Virus record (IMG/VR): IMGVR_UViG_3300008259_000193
Coordinates: 1-33,905 of that record
Strand: one strand, 5' to 3'
DNA: 33,905 nucleotides
Source of the DNA: a virus
Shown here: one piece after another, positions 10,640-33,116 of the stretch
How positions within the stretch are numbered: the first letter of the stretch is position 1
How the letters are laid out: each line of letters begins with the position of its first letter
Notes under the pieces: generated by a model
What the model was told of the DNA's origin: nothing
Databases searched by the model: none
Seen by the model: only the letters and a program-made list of their open reading frames with translations
Made by a program: the position numbers and the translations under genes

Positions 10640-10977
10640 GCGTCCACCCATTCCCAGCCCAGCACTAGGCGCACACCCATGCGGTGCAGCCAGCAGGGCT
10701 TTTTGGTCAGATTGAATTGGACGCCGCCGCCAATGCGATATCCACCTACCGGTGGTGTCGGTGCTCTGAGGGTGTATTCGGTCATGTGTTCTCCTCCTTT
10801 GCCCGGCTCCCGCTCTGGCTGGGGTGCTGGCTGCTCCAGCCACGGGCAATAGCGATTAAAAAAACTCTTCCACGGTACAGGCTTCTGTTCCTGCTGCGCC
10901 AGTGCTTCTTCCTGAGCGGCATCCCATGTCTTCTCAATGTATTCCATCCACTCTTTTTTTGTGATTGGCTTGTTCAT
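10636..10977 (-). CDS. hypothetical protein, possibly two in-frame products
   Basis: A 113-residue frame starting MNKPITKKEWMEYIEKTW. The first half ends in a proline- and glutamate-rich linker (QPAPQPEREPGKGG). An internal ATG at 10785 is preceded by AAAGGAGGAGAACAC, the same ribosome binding leader that precedes other genes in this block. It would give a separate 49-residue protein (GYRIGGGVQFNLTKK, GVRLVLGWEWVDA). Either the gene makes two nested products or two ancestral genes have fused by loss of a stop codon. Confidence 0.6.
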   Translation of the reverse strand: MNKPITKKEWMEYIEKTWDAAQEEALAQQEQKPVPWKSFFNRYCPWLEQPAPQPEREPGKGGEHMTEYTLRAPTPPVGGYRIGGGVQFNLTKKPCWLHRMGVRLVLGWEWVDA

Positions 10978-11174
10978 GATGGTTTCCTTTCTCCACGCTC
11001 AAACTTCTCCCGCTGATCTGCACTTTGATGAACAACAGTGAAGTCAGAATCATCCACCGTAGGCTTGCACCAGCAATCAGGCGTCAGCACATGCTCGTAT
11101 AAATCATCCACAGGAGCAATGTGCTGCACAAAGTTGCCCGCCTCTGATTCGAATCCAATAAGCCGCCAAGTCAT
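10974..11174 (-). CDS. small hypothetical protein, 66 residues
   Basis: A compact acidic protein beginning MTWRLIGFESEAGNFVQHI, with a CWC pair in TPDCWCKPTVDD and a charged tail ending RKPS. The ATG at 11174 has GAGGGAG upstream. Both ends show 4-base ATGA overlaps with the neighbouring genes, so it is made as part of the coupled chain. No family is recognised. Confidence 0.6.
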   Translation of the reverse strand: MTWRLIGFESEAGNFVQHIAPVDDLYEHVLTPDCWCKPTVDDSDFTVVHQSADQREKFERGERKPS

Positions 11175-11347
11175 TGCTCCCTCGCTTTCAGTCTTTGCAC
11201 AGCAGCGTCTTTAAGCGCTTGTGCAGAACTCGGGTCCTCTTCGTGCAAGAGGTTCATAAAACGCACAACCCAGTCGGCGTCAGGCGCCCCGCTACCGCTG
11301 GATGCGGCTTGCTGCATAAGCTCAACGAGTTTTTCGCGGTCAGTCAT
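11171..11347 (-). CDS. small hypothetical protein, 58 residues
   Basis: Read from the reverse complement. It begins MTDREKLVELMQQAASSGSG and ends QRLKAREQ. It is all-helical in character, with a glycine/serine break and then APDADWVVRFMNLLHEED. The ATG at 11347 follows AAGGAGAACAC and overlaps the preceding stop. The MTDRE start is echoed in gene 11891-12136, another hint of module reuse in this block. The function is unknown. Confidence 0.6.
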   Translation of the reverse strand: MTDREKLVELMQQAASSGSGAPDADWVVRFMNLLHEEDPSSAQALKDAAVQRLKAREQ

Positions 11348-11925
11348 GTGTTCTCCTTAATGCCGTGGGCGGCTTCGATGGCTCGGGCAACTTCTGTAAA
11401 AGACAGCATTGCCGCGCCAAGCGGCACACAAGCCCTTTCAATCTCCTCATCCGTCAGCGGCTTGCGCTGTGGTGGGGTGGAGAAATGTTCTCGCAACCAC
11501 GATTCAATGCGTGCGATGGTGTCCGAAAAGCCGTCATCTGCTGGTGATGTTTGGGCAATAACAAAAAGCTGAGTAGCCAAGTCTTCGTACACCACCGGCT
11601 CTGGCTGTGGTGGGGTTAAGTAAGCGTTTGAGTCTTCGAGGTCGCCACCGCCTACCCATGTGCGCTGTGGGCAGCAATGACCGCACCTCGGGCAGTCAAA
11701 CACCGGCTCCTGCTCTGGCTGCGCCAGTTCGCGGTAGCCGTCCAACCGCTTCGCGGCTTCCGGCGATGCGAGCCATGTCGCGGCCTTCCTCTCCCACTCG
11801 GCGCACAGGTCATGCAACCGGCGCAACTCGGCGGCGGCTTGCTCAATGTCTTGCTGGTGGGCATCGCCTGTCGCGTATAGGTCAAGTCGATCAGCCAGCC
11901 GCAGGGCTTCTGGTTGTTGTGTCAT
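11344..11925 (-). CDS. modular accessory protein with CPRC zinc motif
   Basis: A 193-residue protein starting MTQQPEALRLADRLDLYATG. A helical N-terminal segment (AAAELRRLHDLCAEWERKA) is followed by an AQPEQEPV linker and a zinc-knuckle-like DCPRCGHCCPQRT. A second PPQPEPVVYEDL linker comes next. The C-terminal segment PLTDEEIERAC...SFTEVARAIEAAHGI resembles the tail modules of neighbouring genes. Such mosaic proteins are frequent in Burkholderiales phages. The start overlaps the upstream gene by 35 bases, and no strong ribosome binding site is visible. Confidence 0.7.
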   Translation of the reverse strand: MTQQPEALRLADRLDLYATGDAHQQDIEQAAAELRRLHDLCAEWERKAATWLASPEAAKRLDGYRELAQPEQEPVFDCPRCGHCCPQRTWVGGGDLEDSNAYLTPPQPEPVVYEDLATQLFVIAQTSPADDGFSDTIARIESWLREHFSTPPQRKPLTDEEIERACVPLGAAMLSFTEVARAIEAAHGIKENT

Positions 11926-12136
11926 GGTCAACTTCGTCTTGAAAGTAGTCAATGTCGTGTTTTTCCGATGCTCCGTAACACACCCATGCCACAGGCTCCT
12001 GCTCTGGCTGCGCCAGCCTCTCGCGCAGGGCGGTGATGGCTTCGCTGTGTCCATCCAAGTCTTTGTTTGAGTTTGAATATGGATGTGCTTTTATCAGCGC
12101 CTCCAGCGCCTGCTCCATGATCTCGCGGTCGGTCAT
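11891..12136 (-). CDS. small modular protein with EPVAW linker
   Basis: An 81-residue protein from the ATG at 12136, which follows GGAGGAGC and overlaps the preceding stop (ATGA); an ATG at 12151 is less well placed. It begins MTDREIMEQALEALIKAHPY, continues ITALRERLAQPEQEPVAWVC and ends in a charged, histidine- and aspartate-rich stretch. The EPVAW segment is common in accessory proteins of this phage type, but its function is unknown. Confidence 0.65.
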   Translation of the reverse strand: MTDREIMEQALEALIKAHPYSNSNKDLDGHSEAITALRERLAQPEQEPVAWVCYGASEKHDIDYFQDEVDHDTTTRSPAAG

Positions 12137-12315
12137 GTCAAGCTCCTCCATTTGCTTTTTGGCTCGTTGGCCCGCTCGACGTAAAAGTGGATTAGGAAGT
12201 TGAATATCTGCACGTACGTCATTCTGATGCCAGTGTCATTGGCAATGCGCTCACGAATTAAATCAATGTCTTTGCTGACAGGGATCGTGATGCGTTTGGT
12301 TTTAGGATCAATCAT
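12133..12315 (-). CDS. ribbon-helix-helix-like small protein
   Basis: A 60-residue protein beginning MIDPKTKRITIPVSKDIDLI. A short strand (KRITIPVS) and then two helices (DLIRERIANDTG, TYVQIFNFLIHFYVERA) match the layout of Arc/MetJ-type ribbon-helix-helix DNA-binding proteins. It may repress phage promoters, possibly at one of the palindromes noted in this window. The ATG at 12315 follows the repeated TTTGAAAGG leader. No toxin-like partner is next to it, so an antitoxin role is not supported. Confidence 0.6.
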   Translation of the reverse strand: MIDPKTKRITIPVSKDIDLIRERIANDTGIRMTYVQIFNFLIHFYVERANEPKSKWRSLT

Positions 12316-18955: not shown

Positions 18956-19429
18956 ATGACTACCAAAACACCCTCGCCGAAAGGAAATGGAAAGTTCCTT
19001 GGGCGGCCGACGAAGTACGATCCCAAGTATTGCGACATTGTCATCGAGCTTGGCAAGAAGGGCTACAGCAGAGCGCAGATGTTCGCAGCAACGGGCGTGC
19101 CTTACGCTACGTTTAAAGCCTGGGAGCATGGTCAGCCGGATTTTCAAGCCGCCATGGATGAAGCGAAGGCTCATGCACTGGCATTTTGGGAAGATATGGC
19201 GTGCAATCACATGGTCGAAGCACCAGGTGGAGTGAAGCTCAACACCGGACTTTGGTCACGGTCCATGGCTGCGCGGTTTCCCCGTGATTACCGCGAGAAC
19301 GCCAAGGTTGAGGTTGTGGGCAAAGACGACGGGCCGATTGAAATTGATCACATTCATGACTTCTCGAAGACTTTGCTCGATGATTTGCTTGGCATAAGGC
19401 AAAAGGATGCTAAGTCAAAAGGCGGCTGA
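18956..19429 (+). CDS. terS: terminase small subunit
   Basis: The DNA-recognition subunit of the packaging motor, 157 residues from the ATG at 18956 (MTTKTPSPKGNGKFLGRPTK). After the GRPTKYDPKYCD start a helix-turn-helix is visible (SRAQMFAATGVPYATFKAW). A charged region follows (NAKVEVVGKDDGPIEIDHI), with an oligomerisation-like C-terminus. It overlaps the large subunit gene by 23 bases. Starts at GTG 18899 or ATG 18917 are possible. None has a good ribosome binding site, and TACAAT at 18942-18947 sits unusually close to the chosen ATG. Confidence 0.8.
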   Translation: MTTKTPSPKGNGKFLGRPTKYDPKYCDIVIELGKKGYSRAQMFAATGVPYATFKAWEHGQPDFQAAMDEAKAHALAFWEDMACNHMVEAPGGVKLNTGLWSRSMAARFPRDYRENAKVEVVGKDDGPIEIDHIHDFSKTLLDDLLGIRQKDAKSKGG

Positions 19430-20831
19430 GCAGCTTGCGGAGCGAATCCGCAACGGGCCGGACCTAAACAAAATGGCGCCTGAATGGCAGGCTGCACATC
19501 AAGCGCGGCAGAAATGGTTGCTTATTGCCAATGACCATCAAATCCCTCCTGGTGGCAACTGGTGGTCGATCTGGTTGTTGTTAGCAGGCCGCGGGGCTGG
19601 TAAGACGCGATGCGCCGCGGAATGGACCTGGTACGAAGCTTGGTCTAACCCAAACACTCGGTGGCTCGTATCAGCACCTACAAGCTCGGATGTTCGTGAC
19701 GTGTGCTTTGAGGGCGACTCAGGTCTCCTTCGCGTCATTCCTGAGATCCTGATTGCTGACTACATCAAGTCGTTGCATGAGCTTAAGCTTGTCAATGGTT
19801 CTATCATCAAAGGCATCCCAGCTAGTGAGCCTAATCGCTTTCGCGGACCTCAGTTCCATGGCGGTTGGCTTGATGAGCTGGCGGCCTGGGAGTACTTGGA
19901 TGACTCATGGGATATGCTCAACTTTGGCATGCGATTAGGCCAGCGCCCTCGACTCATTTGTACGACAACGCCTAAGCCAAAGCCTCTCATCATTGATCTG
20001 GTGAACCGCGAAGGTGAGGATGTGGTGTACACCTCGGCTTCGACGTATGACAACATTCAGAACCTGGCCCCAACTTTCCAAAAGCAGATCCTGCAATATG
20101 AAGGCACCAAGCTAGGGCGCCAAGAAATTCACGCTGAGATCATCGATCCGGAAGAAGCCGGCATTGTCAAGCGTGATTGGTTTAAGCTTTGGCCGCACGA
20201 GAAGCCATTGCCCAGATTTGAGTACGTGATTCAAAGCTACGATTGCGCCACGTCTGACAAAACCAAGAACGATCCAACAGCCTGCTCGGTGTGGGGCGTC
20301 TTTAAGCCAAGTCCCGACAAGCCAATGAGCGTCATGCTCATCGATTGCTGGGAGGAGTACATGCAATATCCCGAGCTGCGACCTAAAGTCATGGATGAGT
20401 ATGGCGCGATCTACGGGGATGAGAACGAGTTTGGGCATGGAAAAAAGGTTGACCTGATCCTGATCGAGGATAAAAGCGCCGGTATCTCACTCATCCAAGA
20501 CTTGCAGCGTGCCGGCTTGCCCGTTCGTGGCTACAACCCGGGCAATGCCGACAAGATGACGCGACTCAACATCGTGGCACCCATCATTGAGCGTGGCCGT
20601 GTCTACATTCCCGAGTCCATAAAGAATCCCGGCATGGCGCGTGATTGGGCCGAGGTCCTGATCTCGCAGATCTGTTCTTTTCCCGAAGTTCGGCACGACG
20701 ACTTGGTGGATACGACCACGCAGGCACTACGAGTGATTCGTGATATGGGCCTGATCAACATCGACCCGGTCATTGTCGTTGATGAGTATGACGAAGATCG
20801 GCAGAAAAGAGTTAACCCCTACGCGGTTTGA
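19407..20831 (+). CDS. terL: terminase large subunit
   Basis: The ATPase and nuclease of the DNA-packaging motor, 474 residues. Walker A is GRGAGKTR (residues 61-68), Walker B is GGWLDELAAWE with D156 and E157, and the CTTTPKPKPL coupling motif is at about 185-194. The RNase H-like nuclease shows SYDCATSDK (D279), LIEDKSAG (E354, D355) and RHDDLVDTTTQAL (D431, D435). The length and motif order fit a complete protein. The ATG at 19407 follows GCAAAAGG inside the small subunit gene. Confidence 0.96.
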   Translation: MLSQKAAEQLAERIRNGPDLNKMAPEWQAAHQARQKWLLIANDHQIPPGGNWWSIWLLLAGRGAGKTRCAAEWTWYEAWSNPNTRWLVSAPTSSDVRDVCFEGDSGLLRVIPEILIADYIKSLHELKLVNGSIIKGIPASEPNRFRGPQFHGGWLDELAAWEYLDDSWDMLNFGMRLGQRPRLICTTTPKPKPLIIDLVNREGEDVVYTSASTYDNIQNLAPTFQKQILQYEGTKLGRQEIHAEIIDPEEAGIVKRDWFKLWPHEKPLPRFEYVIQSYDCATSDKTKNDPTACSVWGVFKPSPDKPMSVMLIDCWEEYMQYPELRPKVMDEYGAIYGDENEFGHGKKVDLILIEDKSAGISLIQDLQRAGLPVRGYNPGNADKMTRLNIVAPIIERGRVYIPESIKNPGMARDWAEVLISQICSFPEVRHDDLVDTTTQALRVIRDMGLINIDPVIVVDEYDEDRQKRVNPYAV

Positions 20832-20851: not shown

Positions 20852-20867
20852 TCTCGCGCTTGCGAGA
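20852..20867 (+). other. hairpin at the presumed 5' end of the late transcript
   Basis: TCTCGC (20852-20857) pairs with GCGAGA (20862-20867) around a GCTT loop. It lies between the TATAAT box and the ribosome binding site AAGAGGG of the next gene. Being within about five bases of the predicted transcript start, it could protect the messenger's 5' end. It lacks the T-run of a terminator. Confidence 0.45.
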
Positions 20868-20883
20868 CTTAAGAGGGTTTAGC

Positions 20884-23800
20884 ATGCCTCCTGAGAATTT
20901 AGTTGATTACACCGCAAGCCCTGAAGAGCCAAGTCTCGATGCGATGCGATACGCGCTAACCCAGCGCAATGCCACACCCAATCAGCAGCAACAACGCCCA
21001 CTGGATAGCGTTACCGACACGTTCAAACGCCTTGCGACGGAGTTTAACCCGTTGATGATAGGTCGCACGCTGCAGGACGCGCCTAAGATTTTGTACAACG
21101 CAGCCGTTGCGCCTGTTGCCAGTACTTGGGCCGGTGCGTTAAAGAACATACAAGCTGCAGGGGCTGCCAAGGCGTATGGCGCATTGGGCATGCCGCAAGA
21201 AGCCGCAGAAGCCAAGAGTCGCATACAGCCCGTAACGCCGCAAAGTTTGCAGGCGCCATTGCGTTCGGCGACGGGTCAACAAACACAGGAAGCGTTAGGC
21301 GAGGCGTTTAACGCATTGCATCTCCCCCCGATGGGGCCAGGCTCAGGTATGCCAGGCACTGCCCCACTGAGTCCGCGGCCTTTCCTTACACCTAACGATG
21401 TAAGGGTCATGGGTGCAAAGGCTACGCACGCTGTGCGCGAGGCCGGGCAAATCCCGACGGACATCGCCAATGTGAGAGGCGCAGGCATTCAACGCCTTAG
21501 CCCGTTGACGGGCCAGCCTTCTGTAGGTAGTCGAATTGGCTCGGCAATTGAAGGCACGGCGCAAACTGCAGGGCGCGTAGGCGATGTGGCTCGTGATGTA
21601 GGGCAATCAACGGCGGATTACATGCAAATGCGGCGTGACATGGGCTTGAGCCCAGTGCCAGGCGTGCCGCCTGAGTTCTTTCCCGACTTGAATCTGTATG
21701 CCATGCGGCCTAAAGACTCGACGCTTGTCACGCCATCGGTCCCGCCTACAAAAGATGTGACCGCGTTGGATATAGGCACCGCGCCACAGACCGCAATTCA
21801 TGACATAGGCGCGCATAGGCCTGAGTTGCGCCCGTCCGATGCATTGGCGTATTTGGCAGGCATGGACTTGGACGTTCCACGCACTGACGAGCAAGGCTTT
21901 GCGCCTATTACATCCACGCGCGCAGATGCATTTCGCGCTTTTGTAGAGGCCAAAGCACAAGAGCTATATCCGGACGCGCCTAATGCTCGCGAGGCCGTAC
22001 TTGCGATGGATGACCGCTTTTCGCGGCAAGCGGATAGGGACGAATCGCGTATAAAGTTGTACGACCAGTTTCGTGAATCGCCGGAAGGCAAAGCCGTTGG
22101 CATGGATGATTTGCCATCGTCAAAGGAGTTGCAAGAGCGCCACGCTGCGGCGTCGCAATGGCTTAACTCTACGCTTTTAAACTACGTTAAACGCAAGTTT
22201 GGCGCTGAAGGTGATCCTTTGGTGCAGCAGGCATCACAAGGTATCACCATGCTACCGGCCGAGGACGTGCGTCGCATGGCAGAAAACGTTAACGAAGATG
22301 TCTTAAAGCGGCGCAGAGCTCAGACAGGCATGCCCGTTGCAGGCACCCTTGCACCTGCCATTCGAGATAAGTCAGTTGAGCTGGCTGATGCCACTGCAGC
22401 GGTGGAGCAGCTGGAACAGCGCCGTGAAGAGTATCGTAACGTTGCAATGCAGCAAGGTCTGCCCGATCCGGCGCAATTGCCTGAGTACGCGGCAACAACA
22501 AACCCGTTGAACGCAGCAGTTAACAAGCGCGATAAGTTGCAAGAAGAGCTAAATAACCTGCAGCTTGGTCGTGACTATGAAAAGATATCTGACATCGCCG
22601 TAGCGGTTGACACGCAACCTAGTTTACTAGGCAAAATTGAGTACCCGCAGCAACAGTTTTACCCGTCGGTTACGCGTGCGCGACCCGATGAGACGCTATT
22701 TCACATTTCTAAAGCAGGGCCACTTCAAAATACAGGCTTTAATGAATTGGCGGCGCAGTTTTATGACGACGTAATTCGTGGCAATATTCCCGTTGACAAG
22801 CTAAAAGGCTTGACCGTTGAGAAATATGTGCGCAACAAAGTTGAGGGCCGCGTTGCTGAAGAAAAACGCCAAGCACAAGCAACGGCGGAGTTGAAAAACA
22901 GCATTGAGTCGCGCATGCAACAGGACATGCAGCGGTACGTCAAGCCTGAGAATTACTTTGGCAACGTTGGCGTGTTGGAGCTTAGCACAAGTACGGGCTT
23001 TACGCCTGAGCAAATTCGTCAATTAATTAGCGACGACACGTTGGTGTTGGATCACTGCGTTGCCGAGGGTCCTACGCCTGGCAGCAAGGCAAAAAATCTT
23101 TGGAATGGCAAAGAGCGCAGGTATATGCCATTGGTTGACCCAATAACGGGCCAATTGTCACCGGGCGCACCTCGTCAGTACACTCGGTATATGCGCGAAG
23201 CTGGCGACCCAGACCCAAGTCGCGCAAGCATGCTGGCCAGTGTCCGCGATAAAAACACCGGTTTGCCTGTCGCAACCATTGAGTTTCAGCACGCCTCAAA
23301 TGGCAAGTATCGTATCGGCTACGCGTCAGGCTATCAAAACGGCAATGTCAAAAATGAGTACCATGAGGCTATCAAAGAGTACTTGAATTCTCGTGCCGAT
23401 ATGATTGAGGGCAGCGGTGATAATCTTTCACATGTAGGTTTGCTTGACTTGCATAGCACAGAGGCGACTGGTGAACTACAACGCATATTAGGCGTGCCGC
23501 GGCGCGATGCTGGCGCATTGCTAGATGCTGAGCTCGCAAACGGCACGTTGCCGCGGTTTGGTACAAGAGATGACCTGCGGCAAATTTTTACAGTTCCACA
23601 AACTGCGCCTGTAGTTCAGCAGCCTGCAACGACGCAACCTGCGCAGCAGAGCATGACTGCCACCGACCTGTACGAGTACTTACAACGTATAGGACGAACA
23701 ATCGGGGTTGACGAAAGCGCTGCAATAGCGCATGCACTACGCACAGTGCAGCGATCCTTTGATGGCGTGCCATCGTATAATGATCTATTGCGTGAGCAGC

Positions 23801-25644
23801 CTACCGCGTTTGCAGAGCGCGTTGCAGACCTCGCTTCAGAACAAGGCAACGCAATTGTTGAGCAAGCATTGCTTGATCTTGCTGACCGCATTGCGCCACC
23901 TGTGCCGCCCGCGCAGCCCTTAAACCCGCCAGAGGCGTGGCCTCTTGCGCAGCCCGAAGCACAACAACCTGAAGCGCAAGGCCGCGGCGCAGGGGCGCCT
24001 TTGGTGCCTAGCACACGGCTGGCAATTGATGACGCCTTTGAGCTTGCTGCGCGTGGCTTACAAGGTAATGATAATGCCACACGTAGGTTTGCTGCTATTG
24101 AGAGTGACTTCCGTGACACATATTTGCAGCCTAACACAACAATGGGTGATTTGCGTGTGTTGCGTACTCGCATAGAAAATGCAATTGACCATTATGATAC
24201 GGTTGCGCCATGGCCGGAAATTGCTGACGCATTGCGCAATGATTTGCTGCCTGCAATAAACGCTATAATTGAGCCGCAGCAGCAGCAACCTGCAGCTCAG
24301 CAGCGTCCCGCACTTGGCGTGTTTGAAGAATTTGCCATAGCTCGGGATTTGCTTGAAGACGCGCGTCTTGATAATCAAACGTTTAACATTGGCGATTTAA
24401 GCACTACACTGTTTGCGCTTGAGAATGGCAATTTTGATGACCCGCGATTTAGGGCACTAGGTCCAAACAGCGCGGCTGCACAACGTGAAGTTGCAAATGC
24501 ACTTCGTCAAACAATGCAAGACGCAGGTATTCCACTGCCTTTTGCGCAGCAGCCCGCAGCAGCTCCGCAGCAACCTACGCCTCAAGCGCAAGCTCGCATC
24601 GACAACATTCGTGCGGCTGATTTAGCCGACATTGTCAACTTTATCGACCCTAATAGATGGCCTTTGCTTGACGCACGCGTTGATCAAGCAGCACAAGGCG
24701 TATATCCAGCAGATGCAGCCACGATAGCAGAGGCCATTCGCAATGGGCAAATGACTGACATTACAAACGGGCTTGATGTCGTTGAGCGTGAGCTTGTTGC
24801 GCGAAACACGCAGCAACTTATTGAAGTCAATGCGCGCAGACAAGGTGCTGCCGCTGAGCAGCCTGTAGATCAGTTTGATCGCGTGCCATTTGATGATGCA
24901 ATAGTCAATTTTCATAACGAGTTAATAGAGCTGGCAAGTGAAGAAAGCAATTGGGGTTTAGCCATTGCTGAGGTTGACCGCATACTGGATGACCTACAGC
25001 ATGGCGCGGATTCAATTTATGGCTTATGGGAAGGCGATGAACCGCTTACCAATCGCGAGCGTGCGTACTTGACAGAAAAGCTTCGTGCGCTTCGTCAAGA
25101 GTACGAAATATACGCGGCGGACGCGGCAAGGGAGGAAGGTTTAGGCGATTGGGAGCCTGATCCTAACCATCCTGCTAATCGTCCTGTTAATCAGGCAATG
25201 CCGCGGGAACGACCCGCTACTGTACCATTTGCGCCTATTTCTCGTAATGCTGCAAATATGTCGTATGAGCAATTGCAAGAGGCATTAACCCCTGCGCAGA
25301 TTAGCGCGGTGGACGCAATCTATGACGATTTAGTTCGTGCTAACACCACGGCGGATGACTTAGATGTCGTTGCGCAATTGGTGTTTAACTACCCAATGAG
25401 TCTTTGGGAAGGCTTGTCAATTATTCCGCGAGCATTGCTTTACAAAGAGCTTACGATCGCGGCAGACAGTCTTAGAGAGCGTGAGGGCAGGCAGCAGCCA
25501 CCACAAGGCTATAAGTCAGGCGGCATTGTACGCAAGTCAGCGCCATCTCATAGTTTTGCACTGAAGTACGCAAACGGTGGTACAGTACCACAAACTCAAA
25601 GCTTGGACGCTATGAAATACGAACTTATGATGCGGAGTAAATGA
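20884..25644 (+). CDS. giant virion-operon protein with PcfJ-like domain
   Basis: A 1586-residue protein between terminase and portal; the ATG at 20884 follows AAGAGGG. The N-terminal 300 residues are alanine- and proline-rich. A segment near residues 635-850 has KGLTVEKYVRNKV, then VLDHCVAEG (H724, C725), then SVRDKNTGLPVATIEF (about 785) and YQNGN (817). It resembles the PcfJ-like domain of large polyvalent proteins of phages and conjugative elements. After about residue 930 come helical segments joined by Q/P-rich linkers. The ends share SLDAMRY (residue 17) and SLDAMKY (residue 1573). The tail has YKSGGIV and KYANGGTV. It may be packaged and injected; this is inferred. Confidence 0.7.
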   Translation: MPPENLVDYTASPEEPSLDAMRYALTQRNATPNQQQQRPLDSVTDTFKRLATEFNPLMIGRTLQDAPKILYNAAVAPVASTWAGALKNIQAAGAAKAYGALGMPQEAAEAKSRIQPVTPQSLQAPLRSATGQQTQEALGEAFNALHLPPMGPGSGMPGTAPLSPRPFLTPNDVRVMGAKATHAVREAGQIPTDIANVRGAGIQRLSPLTGQPSVGSRIGSAIEGTAQTAGRVGDVARDVGQSTADYMQMRRDMGLSPVPGVPPEFFPDLNLYAMRPKDSTLVTPSVPPTKDVTALDIGTAPQTAIHDIGAHRPELRPSDALAYLAGMDLDVPRTDEQGFAPITSTRADAFRAFVEAKAQELYPDAPNAREAVLAMDDRFSRQADRDESRIKLYDQFRESPEGKAVGMDDLPSSKELQERHAAASQWLNSTLLNYVKRKFGAEGDPLVQQASQGITMLPAEDVRRMAENVNEDVLKRRRAQTGMPVAGTLAPAIRDKSVELADATAAVEQLEQRREEYRNVAMQQGLPDPAQLPEYAATTNPLNAAVNKRDKLQEELNNLQLGRDYEKISDIAVAVDTQPSLLGKIEYPQQQFYPSVTRARPDETLFHISKAGPLQNTGFNELAAQFYDDVIRGNIPVDKLKGLTVEKYVRNKVEGRVAEEKRQAQATAELKNSIESRMQQDMQRYVKPENYFGNVGVLELSTSTGFTPEQIRQLISDDTLVLDHCVAEGPTPGSKAKNLWNGKERRYMPLVDPITGQLSPGAPRQYTRYMREAGDPDPSRASMLASVRDKNTGLPVATIEFQHASNGKYRIGYASGYQNGNVKNEYHEAIKEYLNSRADMIEGSGDNLSHVGLLDLHSTEATGELQRILGVPRRDAGALLDAELANGTLPRFGTRDDLRQIFTVPQTAPVVQQPATTQPAQQSMTATDLYEYLQRIGRTIGVDESAAIAHALRTVQRSFDGVPSYNDLLREQPTAFAERVADLASEQGNAIVEQALLDLADRIAPPVPPAQPLNPPEAWPLAQPEAQQPEAQGRGAGAPLVPSTRLAIDDAFELAARGLQGNDNATRRFAAIESDFRDTYLQPNTTMGDLRVLRTRIENAIDHYDTVAPWPEIADALRNDLLPAINAIIEPQQQQPAAQQRPALGVFEEFAIARDLLEDARLDNQTFNIGDLSTTLFALENGNFDDPRFRALGPNSAAAQREVANALRQTMQDAGIPLPFAQQPAAAPQQPTPQAQARIDNIRAADLADIVNFIDPNRWPLLDARVDQAAQGVYPADAATIAEAIRNGQMTDITNGLDVVERELVARNTQQLIEVNARRQGAAAEQPVDQFDRVPFDDAIVNFHNELIELASEESNWGLAIAEVDRILDDLQHGADSIYGLWEGDEPLTNRERAYLTEKLRALRQEYEIYAADAAREEGLGDWEPDPNHPANRPVNQAMPRERPATVPFAPISRNAANMSYEQLQEALTPAQISAVDAIYDDLVRANTTADDLDVVAQLVFNYPMSLWEGLSIIPRALLYKELTIAADSLREREGRQQPPQGYKSGGIVRKSAPSHSFALKYANGGTVPQTQSLDAMKYELMMRSK

Positions 25645-28190
25645 TGGCAACACAGATGCCGATACCTCCTGACTTTGGGCGCTTTGTTGGCCCCGTAGCA
25701 GAGCAAGAAGATGATGACGGGCAAAAGCAATCGGTCTTTGAGATCTTTAACGCGGAAGAGCCCGAGCCGGATGTTGAAGAGCTGCCTGACGGCTCGGCCA
25801 TTGTCCGCTTGGATGATGATAAGCTGCAAGGCCCAGACGTAGATCCGGACTTTTATGAGAACTTGGCCGAGCGGTTGCCGGCATCGGATCTTAAGAAATT
25901 AGCCATTAAGTACCTGGACCTGATTGAAAAGGATAAGGAGGCGCGCGAGGAGCGTGATAAGCAGTATGAAGAAGGCCTACGTAGAACGGGATTGGGAAAT
26001 GACGCCCCTGGTGGAGCGCAGTTTACCGGAGCCAGTAAAGTCGTCCATCCCGTCATGGCAGAAGCCTGCGTTGATTTCTCCGCCCGCGCCATTAAGGAGC
26101 TCTTTCCTCCTGACGGACCAGTCAAAACCAAGATCATTGGCGAGACTACTGATGAGAAAATAAAGCGCGCCGAGCGTAAGCGCGACTTTATGAATTGGCA
26201 GCTCACTGAGCAGATTGAGGAGTACCGCGATGAGTTGGAGCAGTTGCTTACGCAAAAGCCGCTTGGCGGATCACAGTATTTGAAGCTGTGGTATGACGAG
26301 TACAAGCGCAGGCCGTGCGCCGAGTTTGTGCCAATTGACAACATTTACTTACCGTTTGCTGCTGCAAACTTTTACACTGCGCAGCGCGTAACCGAAGTCA
26401 ACGACATCACGCAGGAGACGTTTGAGCTTCGTATTGCGCAAAAAATGTACACCGACATCGATTTGGTGCGCGCAACGCAAGAGCCTGAGCAAACCAAAGC
26501 GGAAAAGGCTAATGACAAAATCGAAGGCCGCTCTAGTCAGGAGATTAACGTCGACGGCGTCCGCAGGGTGTACCACATTTACACGTGGCTGGAAACGGAA
26601 GATGATTCTTTTACCAAAGGCGAGCGGGCACCGTACATCTTGATGATTGATGACTTTACGGGCGAGGTGGTAGGCCTGTATCGTAATTGGGAAAAAGGCG
26701 ACGACACGCTAACCAAGCTCGATTGGCTTGTTGAGTTTAAGTTTATTCCTTGGCGAGGAGCCTACGCCATTGGTTTGCCACACTTGATTGGCGGTTTAGC
26801 CGCTGCACTTACAGGCTCACTTCGTGCTTTGCTGGACGCCGCGCATATCAACAACGCACCGACCATGCTGAAGCTAAAAGGTGCAAAAATCTCCGGTCAA
26901 TCCACGCAGATTGAGCCTACACAAGTTGCGGAGATTGAAGGCGCCCCGGGTGTTGATGATGTGCGTAAGATTGCAATGCCTGTGCCTTTCAATCCACCAA
27001 GCGTTGTACTCTTTCAATTGCTAGGCTGGCTTACCGGCGCGGCAAAAGGCGTCGTTACCACCGCCGAGGAAAAGATTGCCGACGTCAACAGCAATGCGCC
27101 GGTAGGCACTACGCAGGCGTTGATTGAGCAAGGCGCCGCGGTGTTTAGCGCCATCCACGCGCGGTTGCATAATAGCCAAGCTCGCGTTCTTAAGATCCTT
27201 AACCGCTTGAACCGTTGGTACTTTGATGAGCAGTACAAAGGACATATGGTCGAGGACCTTGGTATAACCAAGGAAGACTTTGAGCGCGACACGGACATCA
27301 TCCCGGTCTCGGACCCGCACATCTTTGCTGAGACGCAGCGATACGCGCAGGTGCAAACCCTTGCCGCACGGGCACAGGCCAATCCCGACTTGTACAACCG
27401 CTTGGCCGTTGAGAAACGAATCCTTAAGCAGATTAAGCTGCCGGACATCAACGAAGTGTTGCCTGACCCGCAGAATGTCAAGGAGATGAACCCCGCATTG
27501 GAAAACGTAGCCATGACGCTCGGCAAGCCGGTAGGCGCCTTTCCCGCGCAAGATCATTTGGCCCATATTCAAGTTCACTTGGATTACATGCGCGATCCGG
27601 TGTATGGCGCAAATCCTATCATCGCGCCGGCATTTACGCCACAATGCCTGGAGCATTTGAAGCAACACCTTGTGTTGTGGTACCTTAATCATGTTGAGCA
27701 ATACGCCGCGTCCGCGCTGTCTCGGCCTTTCAACATTTTGAAAGAGCAAGTGCTGCCTGCAGAAGCCGATCAGCTGCTTGCAGCAGTTGCGCAACATGTC
27801 CACCAAGATACGAGCCAGACTTTTGGCGGCGTAACGCCGGTCATTGCGCAGGCACTGCAAATGCTGAAGCAAATGCAAGGCCAACCGCCGTTGGATCCGG
27901 CAACGCAGGCGTTTGTGCAAACCAGCATGGCTGAAACACAGCGCAGAGCAGCAAAAGATCAAGGCGAGTTGCAGTTGAATGTTGCCAAGATGCAGCAGAA
28001 CGACCAGCACTTTATGATTGATAAGCAAACCGAGCTGATCAAAAATACGGAAGACAACTTGGTGCAGGAAAGAATCAAGTCGGCAGAGCTTACGCGTGAT
28101 GCTGCCAGCTTGCAAACTGAGCAGTTTAAGACTGCGATCGACGCGCAAAACGCAATCCAATCTACTCTAGGAGTTCAAAATGGCCAATGA
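25641..28190 (+). CDS. portal protein
   Basis: An 849-residue head-tail connector through which DNA is packaged. The acidic N-terminus is followed by a portal-like core: QFTGASKVVHPVMAEACVDF near residue 130, then KPLGGSQYLKLWYDEYKRRP, IDNIYLPFAA, and a long central-helix region (HLIGGLAAALTGSLRALLDAA). The glutamine-rich C-terminal helices end at residue 849. The layout matches the large SU10/phiEco32-type portals I know. The start overlaps the giant gene's stop (AAATGATG); the ATG at 25644 has the better distance to GGAG. It precedes scaffold and capsid genes as expected. Confidence 0.88.
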   Translation: MMATQMPIPPDFGRFVGPVAEQEDDDGQKQSVFEIFNAEEPEPDVEELPDGSAIVRLDDDKLQGPDVDPDFYENLAERLPASDLKKLAIKYLDLIEKDKEAREERDKQYEEGLRRTGLGNDAPGGAQFTGASKVVHPVMAEACVDFSARAIKELFPPDGPVKTKIIGETTDEKIKRAERKRDFMNWQLTEQIEEYRDELEQLLTQKPLGGSQYLKLWYDEYKRRPCAEFVPIDNIYLPFAAANFYTAQRVTEVNDITQETFELRIAQKMYTDIDLVRATQEPEQTKAEKANDKIEGRSSQEINVDGVRRVYHIYTWLETEDDSFTKGERAPYILMIDDFTGEVVGLYRNWEKGDDTLTKLDWLVEFKFIPWRGAYAIGLPHLIGGLAAALTGSLRALLDAAHINNAPTMLKLKGAKISGQSTQIEPTQVAEIEGAPGVDDVRKIAMPVPFNPPSVVLFQLLGWLTGAAKGVVTTAEEKIADVNSNAPVGTTQALIEQGAAVFSAIHARLHNSQARVLKILNRLNRWYFDEQYKGHMVEDLGITKEDFERDTDIIPVSDPHIFAETQRYAQVQTLAARAQANPDLYNRLAVEKRILKQIKLPDINEVLPDPQNVKEMNPALENVAMTLGKPVGAFPAQDHLAHIQVHLDYMRDPVYGANPIIAPAFTPQCLEHLKQHLVLWYLNHVEQYAASALSRPFNILKEQVLPAEADQLLAAVAQHVHQDTSQTFGGVTPVIAQALQMLKQMQGQPPLDPATQAFVQTSMAETQRRAAKDQGELQLNVAKMQQNDQHFMIDKQTELIKNTEDNLVQERIKSAELTRDAASLQTEQFKTAIDAQNAIQSTLGVQNGQ

Positions 28191-28467
28191 AGGTATCAAT
28201 ATGCATAAGCGTTTGGCAATGGGCGCGTCTGAAGGGACGGCCAAAGCCAGTGGCAAAAGTGTGATTCAAAAGTACGCAGCAGGCGGGTCGGTAATGCCTG
28301 AGTCGCGAGTGGCAAACCTGCCTGCTCGTGGCTCCGCGCCGCCGCCTCTTCCTAAACCTGGCGGCAAAATTGCCACTATGAAAAAAGGTGGCGCTGCTAA
28401 AAAAGGCCCCGGCATTATGATTGCCGTGGCCGTCCCCGTGAAGAAATCTGCAGGTCGTGGCCGTTGA
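28180..28467 (+). CDS. small basic protein with VIQKYAAGGSV motif
   Basis: A 95-residue, strongly basic protein rich in G, A, K and P. The motif VIQKYAAGGSV (residues 28-38) recurs in variant form in gene 32679-33116 and at the C-terminus of the giant protein. A KKGGAAKKGPG stretch and a GRGR terminus make it suited to binding DNA or an acidic surface. The ATG overlaps the portal end by 11 bases and follows AGGAG. It is probably a minor virion component; no family is recognised. Confidence 0.7.
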   Translation: MANEGINMHKRLAMGASEGTAKASGKSVIQKYAAGGSVMPESRVANLPARGSAPPPLPKPGGKIATMKKGGAAKKGPGIMIAVAVPVKKSAGRGR

Positions 28468-28474
28468 GCAATCA

Positions 28475-28660
28475 ATGTCTATGCTTGGAGATTTCATCGG
28501 CCGCGTAAAGGTTGAGCAGGCCAAACTTGCGGAGAGCCTTACACAAGGCTTGGCCACAAATTTTGAGACCTACCAGCGTTTAGTCGGCCGGCACCAAGGC
28601 TTGCAAGAAGCCTTGTCCATTCTTAATCAACTACTTGAAGAGGAACGAGATGGCAATTGA
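28475..28660 (+). CDS. small helical protein, 61 residues
   Basis: The protein begins MSMLGDFIGRVKVEQAKLAE and is one or two amphipathic helices (TNFETYQRLVGRHQGLQEAL), ending EEERDGN. The start is uncertain: GTG at 28457 overlaps the preceding gene, while ATG at 28475 has only GAG nearby. It ends 11 bases inside the GroES-like gene. Its place between portal and scaffold genes suggests a small morphogenesis protein. No family is recognised. Confidence 0.65.
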   Translation: MSMLGDFIGRVKVEQAKLAESLTQGLATNFETYQRLVGRHQGLQEALSILNQLLEEERDGN

Positions 28661-29087
28661 ACTTATGCCGGAGGCTTCGAATGAAGCCGAGTTGCGGGAA
28701 GCATTTCCTGCAGTTGACCCCGGTGCAATCCCCGTAGGTGGTAGGATCTTGGTGCAATGGCGCGCCGTGCGCGACAAGATCACTAGCTCAGGCATTGTGC
28801 TGCCTGAGGAAACCAAAGAGACTGAAAAGTGGAATACGCAGGTTGCAAAAGTTGTTGCAATTGGCCCACTTGCCTTTAAGAAACGCGATTCCATGGAGCC
28901 GTGGCCCGAAGGCAGTTGGATTGCCGTCGGGGATTACGTGCGTATGCCTAAATGGGGCGGCGACCGCTGGGAAGTACCCTTTGAGGTTGACAATGCCAAA
29001 GGCAAAGCGCTTTTTAGCATCTTTAACGACCACGAGGTGATTGCAAAAGTCACCGGTGACCCGTTAAAAGTAAAAGCTTTCGTGTAA
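28650..29087 (+). CDS. GroES-like co-chaperonin
   Basis: A 145-residue protein with the Cpn10 pattern: VGGRILVQWRAVRDK, a mobile-loop-like segment ITSSGIVLPEE, KVVAIGPLAF, VGDYVRMPKWGGDRW and a final FNDHEVIAKV. It would cap the host GroEL chamber to help fold the capsid protein, as T4 gp31 does; this is the family role, not shown here. It is longer than the host protein (about 95 residues), with an acidic N-terminus and an extension in the middle. The ATG at 28650 follows GAGGAACGAG. It lies before the scaffold and capsid genes. Confidence 0.82.
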   Translation: MAIELMPEASNEAELREAFPAVDPGAIPVGGRILVQWRAVRDKITSSGIVLPEETKETEKWNTQVAKVVAIGPLAFKKRDSMEPWPEGSWIAVGDYVRMPKWGGDRWEVPFEVDNAKGKALFSIFNDHEVIAKVTGDPLKVKAFV

Positions 29088-29104
29088 GCTTTGGAGAATG
29101 ACAC

Positions 29105-30097
29105 ATGACACCTACTGAAAAGTTGGACTTGCAAGTCGCTGAGGAGGCTGATGGCTCCGCAGTGGTGCAAATGCCCGAAAATGACAGCAACGAGCTCTCG
29201 AGTGCAGCTGATAACTCACAAAATGATGATCACGATGCATCAGATGAGGCTCAGGGACCCCAAAATGATGACGATAGGGGTATACAGGACGATGATCCTG
29301 AACGTGAGGCCCTTAGGGCTGCACGCCGAGATGAAAGAAGGCTAAAAAAGCAGCTTCATCGTGAAAAAGCACGTGAATCTAACCACTTGATCACTGCATT
29401 GCGTAAACAAAACCAAGAACTTGCACAACGAGTGGCTACTTTGGAGACAAAGACCTCTGGTGCGGAGCTTGCAAGACTTGATAAGGCCATTGAAGACTCG
29501 CAAACGCGTGTTGAGTACGCGAAAATGAAGCTTCAAGATGCTGTAAACTCACGAAATGGTGCTGAAGTCACCAAAGCCCAGCAGTTGTGGTATGACAACC
29601 AGCGGCAGTTGGAGACTTTGCAGTCAATGAAGACCAATGCCACCAAGCACATTTCGCAGCCTAAGCAGCAAATCAAAGGGCCTGACCCGACGGTTCAGCG
29701 TATGGCTGCGACATGGATGGAGCGGAATACCTGGTACGATCCTCAGCTTAAAGACGCGGATTCCAAGGTTGCGCAATCCATTGATCAGTCTTTGACCGAG
29801 GAAGGCTTTGACCCCGCTCTTGCGGATTATTGGGATGAGCTTGATGAGAGGCTTCAAAAATACCTTCCACATCGCTATAATTCCGGGTATAGTAGCAATA
29901 CGAAAACTTCCAGACCCAGATCTGTTGTGACAAGTTCAGGACGTGAAGCAGTATCCAGCATACGGGCCAACGAATTCAGAGTTGACCCGGAGCGTGTACG
30001 TGCGCTTAAAGAAGCAGGCATGTGGGATAACGTGGAGCTTCGCAACAAGATGATTCGCAAATTTGCTGACTTTGATCGACAACAGAAAAGAGGTTAA
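29105..30097 (+). CDS. capsid scaffolding protein
   Basis: A 330-residue protein expected to guide procapsid assembly and then leave. The N-terminal 70 residues are very acidic and low in complexity (QNDDHDASDEAQ). Residues about 70-185 form a long coiled coil (RRLKKQLHREKARE, LARLDKAIEDSQTRVEYAKM). A tryptophan-containing domain follows (RMAATWMERNTWYDP). The basic C-terminus (RNKMIRKFADFDRQQKRG) would bind the coat protein. Location before the capsid gene supports the call. The start follows GGAGAATGACAC. Confidence 0.8.
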   Translation: MTPTEKLDLQVAEEADGSAVVQMPENDSNELSSAADNSQNDDHDASDEAQGPQNDDDRGIQDDDPEREALRAARRDERRLKKQLHREKARESNHLITALRKQNQELAQRVATLETKTSGAELARLDKAIEDSQTRVEYAKMKLQDAVNSRNGAEVTKAQQLWYDNQRQLETLQSMKTNATKHISQPKQQIKGPDPTVQRMAATWMERNTWYDPQLKDADSKVAQSIDQSLTEEGFDPALADYWDELDERLQKYLPHRYNSGYSSNTKTSRPRSVVTSSGREAVSSIRANEFRVDPERVRALKEAGMWDNVELRNKMIRKFADFDRQQKRG

Positions 30098-30099
30098 TC

Positions 30100-30636
30100 A
30101 TGGATGACCGTATTCGTAAAAATACTCGTATGGACCGCAGTAGCCGTGGGCAAGAAGATGCCTCGCGTGCTGCGCCAGAAGAAAACTTTGTTTCATCTGA
30201 GGAACGTCGTAAGATGTTCCGCTCGGAATGGCTGCAAGAAGCTCTTCCGACTCCGCCAGAAATTCCTGGCTATCATCTGTGCTGGTTGTCTTCCAATAAC
30301 CAATATGACCCTATTCACAAGCGAATGAGAATGGGCTATGAGCCCGTGAAAGCCGATGAACTACCAGGCTTTGATCATTTGAAAGTGAAAGCTGGTGAGC
30401 ACGTCGGCTTTGTTGCTTGCAATGAAATGCTGCTGTATAAGTTGCCTATGGACATCTATCAGCAGTTGATGCTTGAGCTTCATTATCATGCCCCTCTCGA
30501 GGAGCAGGAAAAGATCAAGGTTCAACAAGAGCAATTGTTAGGCGCGCGCGACAGTCATGGCAAGACGTTGGTTTCTATTGAAGGCGATGGCATGAACTTT
30601 GACGCCAAAGTCAAGTCACTTCCAGTGTTTAACTGA
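30100..30636 (+). CDS. conserved phage head-operon protein
   Basis: A 178-residue protein beginning MDDRIRKNTRMDRSSRGQED. The core has EIPGYHLCWLSSNNQYDPIH, then RMGYEPVKADELPGF and HVGFVACNEMLLYKLP, a pattern I recall next to scaffold genes in large-portal phages. The N-terminus is polar and disordered, and the C-terminus is charged. No catalytic motif is evident. The ATG at 30100 lies behind GAGGTTAATC, 2 bases after the scaffold stop. It is probably a minor head or morphogenesis protein. Confidence 0.75.
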   Translation: MDDRIRKNTRMDRSSRGQEDASRAAPEENFVSSEERRKMFRSEWLQEALPTPPEIPGYHLCWLSSNNQYDPIHKRMRMGYEPVKADELPGFDHLKVKAGEHVGFVACNEMLLYKLPMDIYQQLMLELHYHAPLEEQEKIKVQQEQLLGARDSHGKTLVSIEGDGMNFDAKVKSLPVFN

Positions 30637-30674
30637 AATGACTAACATTCACATCTTTATGAAAGGACTCAGAC

Positions 30675-31247
30675 ATGAGTGCAACTAATGCACCGTTCGG
30701 TCTGCGCCCGGCCTTCCACCCTTCTGGGTTGGATCGAGCCCAAGCGCTGGCTGGCGGCATCGCGTCGGCTTATGCAACCGACATTCTCAAGGGCCAACCG
30801 GTCAAGCTCAACTCGAGCGGCAATATTGTTGTCGCTGCCGCTGGCGATGCCTTCCAAGGCGCTTTCGCTGGTGTGCAATGGACTGACACCACCGGTCGTG
30901 CTCGCGTTTCCAACTACTGGCCTGCCAATACGGCGTATCAAGCCGGTTCTTGCGTGGCGTATTTCTACAACGATCCTAACATCGTTTATGAAATTCAGGC
31001 TGCAGGATCGCTGGCACAAACCGCTGTAGGCGATATGGCTGATCTAAGCAACACCACCGCTGGTTCCACGACCACGGGTCTGTCGCAATGCACTCTGTCC
31101 ACCACCCTGGTAGGCGCAGGCAACAGCGCGCAGATGCTGATTCGTGATCTGGCCCCGTACCCCGACAATGCTTGGGGCGATGCGTACACGATTGTTCGCG
31201 TAACTATTAACGAGTCGCAGTTCAACGCGTCCGTTAACGCTATCTAA
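30675..31247 (+). CDS. virion protein, probably head decoration-type
   Basis: A 190-residue, beta-rich and low-charge protein beginning MSATNAPFGLRPAFHPSG. The ILKGQPVKLNSSGNIVVAAAGD and GAFAGVQW segments are typical of small beta-barrel decoration or stabilising proteins, and the NAPFGLRP start is widespread in phage head operons. It lies directly before the major capsid gene. The start follows GAAAGGACTCAGAC. The specific role is inferred from position and composition. Confidence 0.7.
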   Translation: MSATNAPFGLRPAFHPSGLDRAQALAGGIASAYATDILKGQPVKLNSSGNIVVAAAGDAFQGAFAGVQWTDTTGRARVSNYWPANTAYQAGSCVAYFYNDPNIVYEIQAAGSLAQTAVGDMADLSNTTAGSTTTGLSQCTLSTTLVGAGNSAQMLIRDLAPYPDNAWGDAYTIVRVTINESQFNASVNAI

Positions 31248-31261
31248 GGAGGGTCTGAACT

Positions 31262-32176
31262 ATGGCAGCCCCAATGAGAAGTACGGACTTTCGAAGCATT
31301 GTTGAGCCTATCCTCAATGAATGCTTTGATGGCGTCTATGATCAGCGCTCTGATGAATGGTCCACGGTTTTCCGTGAGCAGCAGGGCATCCCGCGTAACT
31401 ACCACGAAGAGCCGGTCCTGTACGGATTTGGCGCCGCGCCGCAATTGCCTGATGGGTCCCCTGTGGCCTATCAGCAGGGTGGCGTTCTCTTCCTGAAGCG
31501 CTATGTGTACAACGTGTATGGCCTGGCCTTTGCGTTGACCAAAGTGCTTGTTGAAGACGGCGACCATATTCGTATTGGTCAGGTTTACGCCAAGCACTTG
31601 GCGCAATCGCTGGTTGAGACAAAAGAGACTCTTTGCGCTAACGTGCTTAACTACGCTTTCACTGCCGGTTATAACGGCGGCGACGGCGTACCGCTGATCT
31701 CTACTAGCCACCCCTTGGTGGCGGGTACTGCCAGCAACCAATTGAGCACCGCAGCCAACTTGTCGCAAACCTCGCTTGAGCAGATGCTGATTCAGGTTCG
31801 TCAGGCCGTTGACAACAACGGCAAGAAGATCCGTCTGCAGCCCACCAAACTGGTTGTTGCCCCTGGTAACACTTTCCAAGCTGAAGTGCTGCTGAAGAGC
31901 GTTTTGCGTGCCGGTACTGCCAATAACGACATCAACCCGATCAAGTCGATTGGTCTGATGCCGGAAGGTGCTTCAGTCATCTCGCGTCTTACTTCTGCAA
32001 CTGCATGGTGGGTCCAAACCGACGCACCGGAAGGCATGAAGCTGATGATGCGTCGTGGCTTGGAAAAGACCATGGAAGGCGACTTTGAGACCGACTCTAT
32101 GCGTTATAAAGCCACCGAGCGTTATGACGTGGGCTGGACTGACTGGCGCGCCCTGTACGGCACCGCAGGTGTCTAA
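31262..32176 (+). CDS. major capsid protein
   Basis: A 304-residue coat protein that forms the icosahedral shell. The sequence has features I associate with phage capsid proteins: GGVLFLKRYVYNVYGLAFAL, DGVPLISTSHPL, LEQMLIQVRQAVDNNG, IRLQPTKLVV and a C-terminal RYDVGWTDWRALYG. No N-terminal delta domain or protease cleavage site is obvious, which fits a separate scaffold gene. The ribosome binding site TAAGGAGG is the strongest in the operon, fitting very high expression. A hairpin follows the gene. Confidence 0.88.
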   Translation: MAAPMRSTDFRSIVEPILNECFDGVYDQRSDEWSTVFREQQGIPRNYHEEPVLYGFGAAPQLPDGSPVAYQQGGVLFLKRYVYNVYGLAFALTKVLVEDGDHIRIGQVYAKHLAQSLVETKETLCANVLNYAFTAGYNGGDGVPLISTSHPLVAGTASNQLSTAANLSQTSLEQMLIQVRQAVDNNGKKIRLQPTKLVVAPGNTFQAEVLLKSVLRAGTANNDINPIKSIGLMPEGASVISRLTSATAWWVQTDAPEGMKLMMRRGLEKTMEGDFETDSMRYKATERYDVGWTDWRALYGTAGV

Positions 32177-32183
32177 ACCATTT

Positions 32184-32210
32184 GTGGAGGCTTCGGCCTC
32201 CACTCTTTAG
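32184..32210 (+). terminator. hairpin after the major capsid gene
   Basis: GTGGAGGC (32184-32191) and GCCTCCAC (32196-32203) form an 8-base-pair stem capped by a TTCG tetraloop, followed by TCTTTA. It is a partial rho-independent terminator, or a stabilising 3' hairpin that would keep capsid messenger abundant. Confidence 0.7.
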
Positions 32211-32220
32211 GAGAACACAA

Positions 32221-32670
32221 ATGGCACAAACCTACTTTGGTTCTACTGTCCGAGCCGGTTCCGGTACTTTGACCGATACCGTTGACGGCGGTTTTATGGT
32301 GTTGATGCAGACGGCTACGGTAACTACGGTTTCCGCAGGCACTGCAGTTACCAGCACTGCAACTATTCCGGCAGATTCGCAGATCATCAATTTGATCATT
32401 GATTGCACCACGACTCCGGTTGTGGGTGGCGGTACCGCCACTGTAGTTAATGCAACGATTGGTACTGCTGCTGCTGGCACGCAGTATCTTTCTGCGACTG
32501 ATGTGATTACTGGCGGTCGTGCTGCTCTCACTTTCACTGCCGCTCAATTGAGCGCAATGGGAGATGTGAACAACAACACGACCGTTGCATTCACTGTCGA
32601 TCCAGACGGAACTATTTCCACCACTCAGGGTGTTTACCGCCTCACGGTGGTATACGCTCAGAAAGTCTGA
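32221..32670 (+). CDS. virion protein, low-complexity beta-rich
   Basis: A 149-residue protein very rich in T, A, V and G, starting MAQTYFGSTVRAGSGTLTD. It has repeated hydrophobic strands (GGFMVLMQTATVTTVSA, ADSQIINLIIDC) and ends YRLTVVYAQKV, typical of surface or fibre-like virion proteins. The ATG follows TAGGAGAACACAA, just past the capsid hairpin. Its exact position on the particle cannot be told. Confidence 0.7.
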   Translation: MAQTYFGSTVRAGSGTLTDTVDGGFMVLMQTATVTTVSAGTAVTSTATIPADSQIINLIIDCTTTPVVGGGTATVVNATIGTAAAGTQYLSATDVITGGRAALTFTAAQLSAMGDVNNNTTVAFTVDPDGTISTTQGVYRLTVVYAQKV

Positions 32671-32678
32671 GGTACATC

Positions 32679-33116
32679 ATGGGCCAATTCAAACCAATGC
32701 CTAAGATGAAAACTACGGAGCCCACCGTTGAGCTTAAGCTCAAAAAAGGCGGCCCTGTAAAGAAGGCAATGGGAGGCGCAATGCCTGCTGCTGCAATGCC
32801 TTCTGAACGAGGCGTGCCTCGTGCTGCACGACGTGGTATGGCGCCTGCCATGCCGCGTCGTGATATTGGCATGGGTGGTATGCCTATTATGCGTAAAAAG
32901 GGCGGTGAAGTTGAGTCTGCCAAGACTCATGCATCTGAGATGAAAGCCATTAAAGGGCTTAAATCTGAGATGTCATCGCATGAAGCAAAGCCTGCATCCA
33001 AAGCGCATAAAGGTCTGAAGACTGGCGGTGTTGTTGAAAAATATGCTACCGGCGGGGTGATTCAGAAATATAAGCACGGCGGAAAAATGCATAAAGCCTA
33101 CGGCGGCAAGTGCTAA
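32679..33116 (+). CDS. small basic protein with KYATGG-type repeats
   Basis: A 145-residue, very basic protein rich in K, G, M and A. The N-terminal half has KKGGPVKKAMGGAMPAA and RRGMAPAMPRRDIGMGG. The C-terminus (residues about 115-145) has consecutive motifs VVEKYATGG, VIQKYKHGG and HKAYGGKC. They match VIQKYAAGG in gene 28180-28467. It resembles a DNA-condensing or capsid-internal protein. The ATG follows GAGGTACATC, and a strong terminator lies just after the stop. Confidence 0.7.
   Translation: MGQFKPMPKMKTTEPTVELKLKKGGPVKKAMGGAMPAAAMPSERGVPRAARRGMAPAMPRRDIGMGGMPIMRKKGGEVESAKTHASEMKAIKGLKSEMSSHEAKPASKAHKGLKTGGVVEKYATGGVIQKYKHGGKMHKAYGGKC

Follow-up and report, generated by a model that had tools for sequence, protein, structure and literature searches.

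How proteins are selected for the phage head has been worked out at the sequence level in very few systems, above all in T4. In encapsulins, short C-terminal cargo-loading peptides recruit cargo inside a HK97-fold shell. In T4, a 10-residue capsid-targeting sequence is common to the small basic internal proteins, the injected ADP-ribosyltransferase Alt has a propeptide at each end, and foreign proteins can be packaged as fusions (PMC9026906). The survey by Iyer et al. (2017, PMC5512222), in the passages searched, predicts packaging and injection of polyvalent proteins encoded near terminase and portal genes. Our literature searches found no described tag of the kind presented here.

The window analyzed is a 33.9-kb contig of an uncultured phage. 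Its head operon encodes, in order, the small terminase, the large terminase (19407-20831), a giant protein (20860..25644, + strand, 1594 residues as the longest open reading frame), the 849-residue portal protein (25641..28190, + strand; PHROG 1216, E 8.7e-15, and relatives), a small basic protein, a GroES-like protein, a scaffold-like protein (29105-30097), a 178-residue protein, a cement-like protein (30675-31247), the Mu gpT-like major capsid protein (Phage_capsid_4; 31262..32176, + strand), a 162-residue protein, and a basic GG-repeat protein. The start of the portal gene overlaps the stop codon of the giant at 25641-25644. The small basic protein (28180..28467, + strand) overlaps the portal stop and contains 17 lysines and arginines and three acidic residues in 95 residues. 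The GG-repeat protein, located 3' of the major capsid protein, is 145 residues long (32679..33116, + strand). By portal and capsid, the cultured relatives are the Caulobacter phages RW, KcrB, RLK, and GB2A, Roseobacter phages CRP-901/902, Pelagibacter phages HTVC023P/027P, and Planktothrix phages. Searches of the portal and capsid sequences against the PDB returned nothing.

The giant, the small basic protein, and the GG-repeat protein were originally predicted to share a KYAxGG motif, and all three KYAxGG sites are at the predicted positions. A six-frame scan of the window found [KR]YxxGG at four places only, each on the + strand and in the reading frame of one of these proteins. The giant contains KYANGGTV (25564..25587, + strand), with KYANGG at residue 1569 of 1594, and an additional related sequence, YKSGGIV (25510..25530, + strand). 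The small basic protein contains KYAAGGSV (28270..28293, + strand), and the GG-repeat protein ends in tandem nine-residue repeats, KTGGVVEKYATGGVIQKYKHGGKMHKAYGGKC (33018..33113, + strand), which include KYATGG at 33039, KYKHGG at 33066, and KAYGG near 33093. In residue shuffles, the probability of at least one [KR]YA.GG was 0.0026 for the giant, 0.0010 for the 95-residue protein, and 0.0016 for the 145-residue protein. The accompanying statement that the rest of these proteins is dissimilar was correct for the giant, which has nothing else in common with either basic protein; the two basic proteins exhibit weak low-complexity similarity to each other, with a best E of about 0.01. The motif is the first half of a longer tag in the giant. 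The second half, SLDAMKYELMMRSK, which extends to the stop codon (25600..25641, + strand), and its copy near the N-terminus of the giant, SLDAMRYALTQR (20932..20967, + strand), had been overlooked. Residues M29, Y31, and L33 of the N-terminal copy are at least 90% conserved in an alignment of 15 relatives, and in the AlphaFold2 model the copy forms an isolated helix, residues 26-36, inside a low-confidence region.

The giant is a putative cargo protein of the polyvalent type. Translation probably starts at ATG 20884 (M9), which is invariant in relatives. AlphaFold2 modeling of residues 1-912 showed a conserved block with pLDDT mostly 80-95 from about residue 280, so delimited as residues about 280-912 (21697..23595, + strand). 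In the viral structure library BFVD, Foldseek matched the model to a PcfJ-like phage protein (E 3.8e-12) and to a DUF6973 phage protein (E 7e-7). The likeness of the window's giant to PcfJ is one of fold only, since no Pfam domain was found in it; among 32 giants, Pfam recognized ART-PolyVal in six, PcfJ in two, and DUF6973, LPD23, and a FlxA-like match in one each, and no NCBIfam family matched any of the 32. A tblastn search of the whole giant against 50,697 GenBank phage records gave no match, and therefore no annotated homologue supplies a function. Foldseek against the PDB gave no E below 0.001 for the giant; GNAT entries (such as 3igr, probability 0.97, E 0.14) constitute a weak lead only, and re-examination of the PDB matches with VIA-align left long-helix matches over residues 497-569, which are not meaningful. 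Residues about 930-1527 (23647..25440, + strand) form a hypervariable mosaic, as delimited by windowed identity and local matches to the loci L011 and L012. In comparison with near-identical phages, whose portals are 96-97% identical, the first 910 residues are orthologous, most of residues 930-1527 differ, and the tail returns.

The relatives comprised 80 IMG/VR loci selected by portal. The gene directly 5' of the portal gene in these relatives encodes from about 200 residues, in part due to truncated contigs, to about 2150 residues. The protein encoded between terminase and portal is hypervariable, and most copies nonetheless finish in one bipartite tail composed of [YF]AxGGxV, one to five residues, (S)[LIV]DxM[KR]xEL, and, before the stop codon, a few further residues. 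Aligned tails read xxxxKGGxVxxxxSLDxMRxEL, in which both glycines and the methionine are invariant. When 32 whole giants were aligned over 4647 columns, the tag glycine G1573 was the sole invariant position, and G1574 was nearly invariant. For 448 of the 703 pairings of tailed proteins, BLASTP detected nothing beyond the ends at E 0.01; since some pairs may be fast-diverging homologues, this count is the most that could be truly unrelated. Within tails, synonymous differences occur in 160 of the 991 codon pairs that encode identical amino acids, and this indicates that selection acts on the peptide. The last approximately four codons of the giant overlap the ribosome-binding site of the portal gene, and conservation there is therefore partly translational. 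A GG occurs in the last 35 residues of 55 of the 69 non-redundant cargo proteins, where 12 are expected by shuffling, and in 113 of 615 other + strand open reading frames. The canonical tail is absent from some cargo proteins, and distant clades have other suffixes; cargo endings of distant phages that contain GG include GGEVTGDDLILEERPL, RDTMFMELSNKKLKRK, and KRGGLSSIK. The AlphaFold model of the C-terminal part of the giant has low confidence at residues 205-240 of 254, followed by a separate helix over LDAMKYELMMRS. This model, with a mean confidence of 65.5, is only consistent with a flexible tail.

The tag is a feature of head-operon genes of one phage lineage. In 22 whole phage records, an HMM profile of the tail matched the full tag in proteins of the terminase-portal stretch only; the small and post-capsid proteins matched the first half alone, with locations confirmed in detail for G001 and G009. 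Among 1365 open reading frames from the 80 portal-selected loci and the window, the profile matched genes before the portal and gave no match in reversed sequences; because the profile includes some of these tails, the informative part is that there were no matches elsewhere. The sole match outside the terminase-portal stretch at an i-E below 0.05 was an open reading frame of L087, a locus with no terminase match, where it immediately precedes the portal. Patterns were also scanned against the DNA of 2.9 million IMG/VR contigs, blind to the encoded protein. In the tagged lineage, 55 of 87 in-frame pattern matches are no more than 25 residues from the C-terminus, where a uniform distribution would give 2.6; in other contigs, the count is three of 51, with 4.2 expected. 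The regular expressions were chosen after the data were seen, and both pattern and profile were derived from known tails, so that recovery of those tails is by construction and detection outside the tagged lineage is biased to the same wording. The remaining lineage matches are at internal positions, in repeated cases between ADP-ribosyltransferase-like modules ('SAIGNRGTYD...GGQVDMDRMRLELMNKGG...'). In L049, two consecutive cargo genes are both tailed. Other genomes contain an additional cargo gene of 350-455 residues, the N-terminus of which carries the LDxM half (MPFDDLAKMRAEMLMR); a separate cargo gene of this kind, of 405 residues, has the N-terminal half-tag alone. The original claim of a short tag shared among virion-operon proteins is supported by conservation in orthologues, specificity in whole records, and persistence while the cargo body is replaced.

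No tags were found in CRP-902 and Caulobacter phage RW, the cultured relatives checked that lack a gene between terminase and portal, and the whole-record profile search found no full tag in RW, CRP-902, HTVC027P, or the assembled genome DSL-LC04. We found no tagged phage in culture, and searches for virion proteomics of a tagged phage returned none. The 23-residue consensus tail, too short a query for tblastn, gave no match in GenBank phages. C-terminal matches in a background pattern scan of bacterial genomes belonged to short or scattered open reading frames without a continuation of the tail. More distant G-like tags (FAMGGPV, FAEGGEV, GMKSGGSV, GYAKGGLV, and a cargo ending HYARGGLATMFTRRR), all without the LDxM half, were observed on the corresponding cargo and small proteins of DSL-LC04 (L008, 9379-11856 and 14282-14887) and psg01 (L362, 3697-5544). 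In G009 (L359, 11453-16495), a tagged phage, a 1680-residue protein encoded outside the head operon contains one G-like site, YAAGGGV, close to its C-terminus (residue 1583).

The first half of the tag is common to three protein classes, since the small and post-capsid proteins also carry the motif; the LDxM half, by sequence, belongs to the cargo. The small post-portal protein keeps HKR(L/M)AMG in all clades and has [YF]xxGG in 33 of 34 close relatives. Absence from orthologues, which the original prediction named as evidence against a tag, was found for this one protein in one clade, where 35 of 35 more distant relatives lack [YF]xxGG. The post-capsid basic protein has motifs of the [YF]xxGG type in 43 of 48 cases, often repeated.

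Several other features of the window and its relatives were observed. A GroES-like co-chaperonin gene (28635-29087; PHROG 3188, E 1.4e-8) is part of the head operon, where it is located between portal and scaffold, and the relatives examined have retained it. In the relatives viewed (L005, L038, L049), the C-terminus of the large terminase is a strongly conserved (V)NPYA[VAM], possibly another docking peptide. The N-terminal portal sequence M[AP]xxMPIPxDYxR (window 25641-25700 and relatives) is nearly constant in tagged phages and decays in the untagged clade; portal N-termini were considered as a matching receptor segment, and MPIPxDYxR is common in tagged phages, yet not decisive. In L082, a GIY-YIG-like open reading frame (VYIVTNTVNGKQYVGMT; 5224-5760) occupies the place of the small basic protein 3' of the portal. 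Several overlapping open reading frames of the early region (window 10415-12151, - strand) have in common a QPEQEPV-like motif (AQPEQEPVAW, AQPEQEPVFD, QPEREP).

Based on the conservation of the tag at the protein level, its position, its confinement to head-operon genes, and its presence on unrelated bodies, a loading mechanism can be proposed. In this mechanism, proteins would be directed into the phage head by a bipartite docking tag, and KYAxGGxV would be its first half. The large protein encoded between terminase and portal is presumably a polyvalent-type effector, the C-terminal part of which is swapped rapidly, while its end keeps the putatively flexible [YF]AxGGxV segment followed by a short, predicted amphipathic helix (S)LDxMRxEL. 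During assembly, this tail may bind a conserved head component, such as the portal, the scaffold, or the inner capsid surface, so that any payload fused to it would be loaded and later ejected into the host with the DNA. The basic proteins that carry the first half only may be internal, probably DNA-associated, head proteins that use the same binding surface. We consider the loading of polyvalent effectors and small basic proteins by such a tag the best explanation of the data and about as likely as not. Capsid targeting would thereby be the best-fitting of the roles originally suggested for the motif.

Other explanations place the tag outside head loading. The tag, a protein-level short linear motif located in low-confidence tails with a helix, could bind a partner used after or outside assembly, such as an ejection channel, a host-side target, or a host chaperone. 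We regard this as unlikely, because the first half is also present on small basic head-operon proteins without effector domains, and every tagged gene found is situated in the head operon, which together point to an assembly component. The original prediction had also suggested a protease site, and the copies at both ends of the giant and between ADP-ribosyltransferase-like modules could serve a prohead protease as recognition or cleavage sites in the processing of cargo polyproteins, as happens in T4-like and giant phages; in T4, both termini of Alt undergo processing (PMC9026906). However, no prohead protease was recognized among the head-operon proteins searched, where divergent proteases could be missed, and protease-named PHROG matches align over the capsid part only. 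Moreover, cleavage at the C-terminal copies would free only about 5-20 residues, and the second half is no cleavage consensus but a conserved amphipathic helix. Processing is therefore disfavored as the function of the tag, and we consider it quite improbable.

Both the small and the post-capsid protein are strongly basic and rich in GG, the repeats are in tandem, and G-like sequences occur in distant phages too. The first half could accordingly be a repeat of basic low-complexity proteins that binds or condenses nucleic acid, which the giant tail resembles by glycine- and lysine-rich convergence. The giant is net acidic (161 K+R, 215 D+E) and nevertheless keeps the tail, the second half of which does not resemble a basic repeat. 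The originally suggested DNA binding leaves the conserved amphipathic half unexplained, and this explanation appears very doubtful. The tail might also be conserved only because the end of the gene holds the ribosome-binding site and overlapping start of the portal gene; the stop and start codons overlap at 25641-25644, and the last codons (for example CGGAGT and AAGGCT) resemble a Shine-Dalgarno sequence. However, GGxV and LDxM lie upstream of that stretch and vary synonymously, and copies recur at N-termini, within proteins, and as the ending of one cargo gene that does not precede the portal. The non-portal copies already disfavor this reading, which we regard as extremely improbable.

Docking of the tag to a head component thus remains our preferred explanation. 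We speculate more tentatively that the bipartite, mainly C-terminal label may be a general loading code, by which any effector module recombined in front of it would be carried in the head and delivered; the first half on the small basic proteins would then show that cargo and internal head proteins compete for, or are organized by, one binding surface. If true, a fixed tag with exchanged multi-kilobase effector bodies would explain payload swapping, and the injected effectors of uncultured phages would be predictable from sequence alone. The loading question could then be tested directly, using a peptide of about 26 residues.

The tag resembles the capsid-targeting sequence of the T4 proteins IPI-III and Alt in being a short terminal peptide on otherwise divergent small basic proteins and an effector. 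A peptide is common to dissimilar head-operon proteins here as well, with the first half on three of them and ART-PolyVal domains in relatives. The T4 sequence works with swapped cargo, and the tail of this lineage is kept across differing cargo bodies. In contrast, the T4 sequence is N-terminal, 10-19 residues long, and removed by gp21, whereas the tag is bipartite, its main copy is C-terminal with the second half alone recurring at N-termini, and no protease was recognized among the head-operon proteins searched. No sequence likeness between the two was noted, and the proposed resemblance is functional only. Encapsulin peptides are likewise short and C-terminal and are likened to the tag by description, although encapsulins are not phage virions. 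The giant resembles phage polyvalent proteins in that it is a very large, multidomain, fast-changing protein encoded beside terminase and portal genes, with ART-PolyVal and LPD domains in relatives; the passages searched of the polyvalent survey contain no short C-terminal tag or loading code (PMC5512222). According to the same passages, the C-terminal part of another giant ejected protein, the N4 virion RNA polymerase, is needed for its encapsidation (cited in PMC5512222). That region is about 1,400 residues long, in comparison to the tail of about 26 residues that would load the giant described here.
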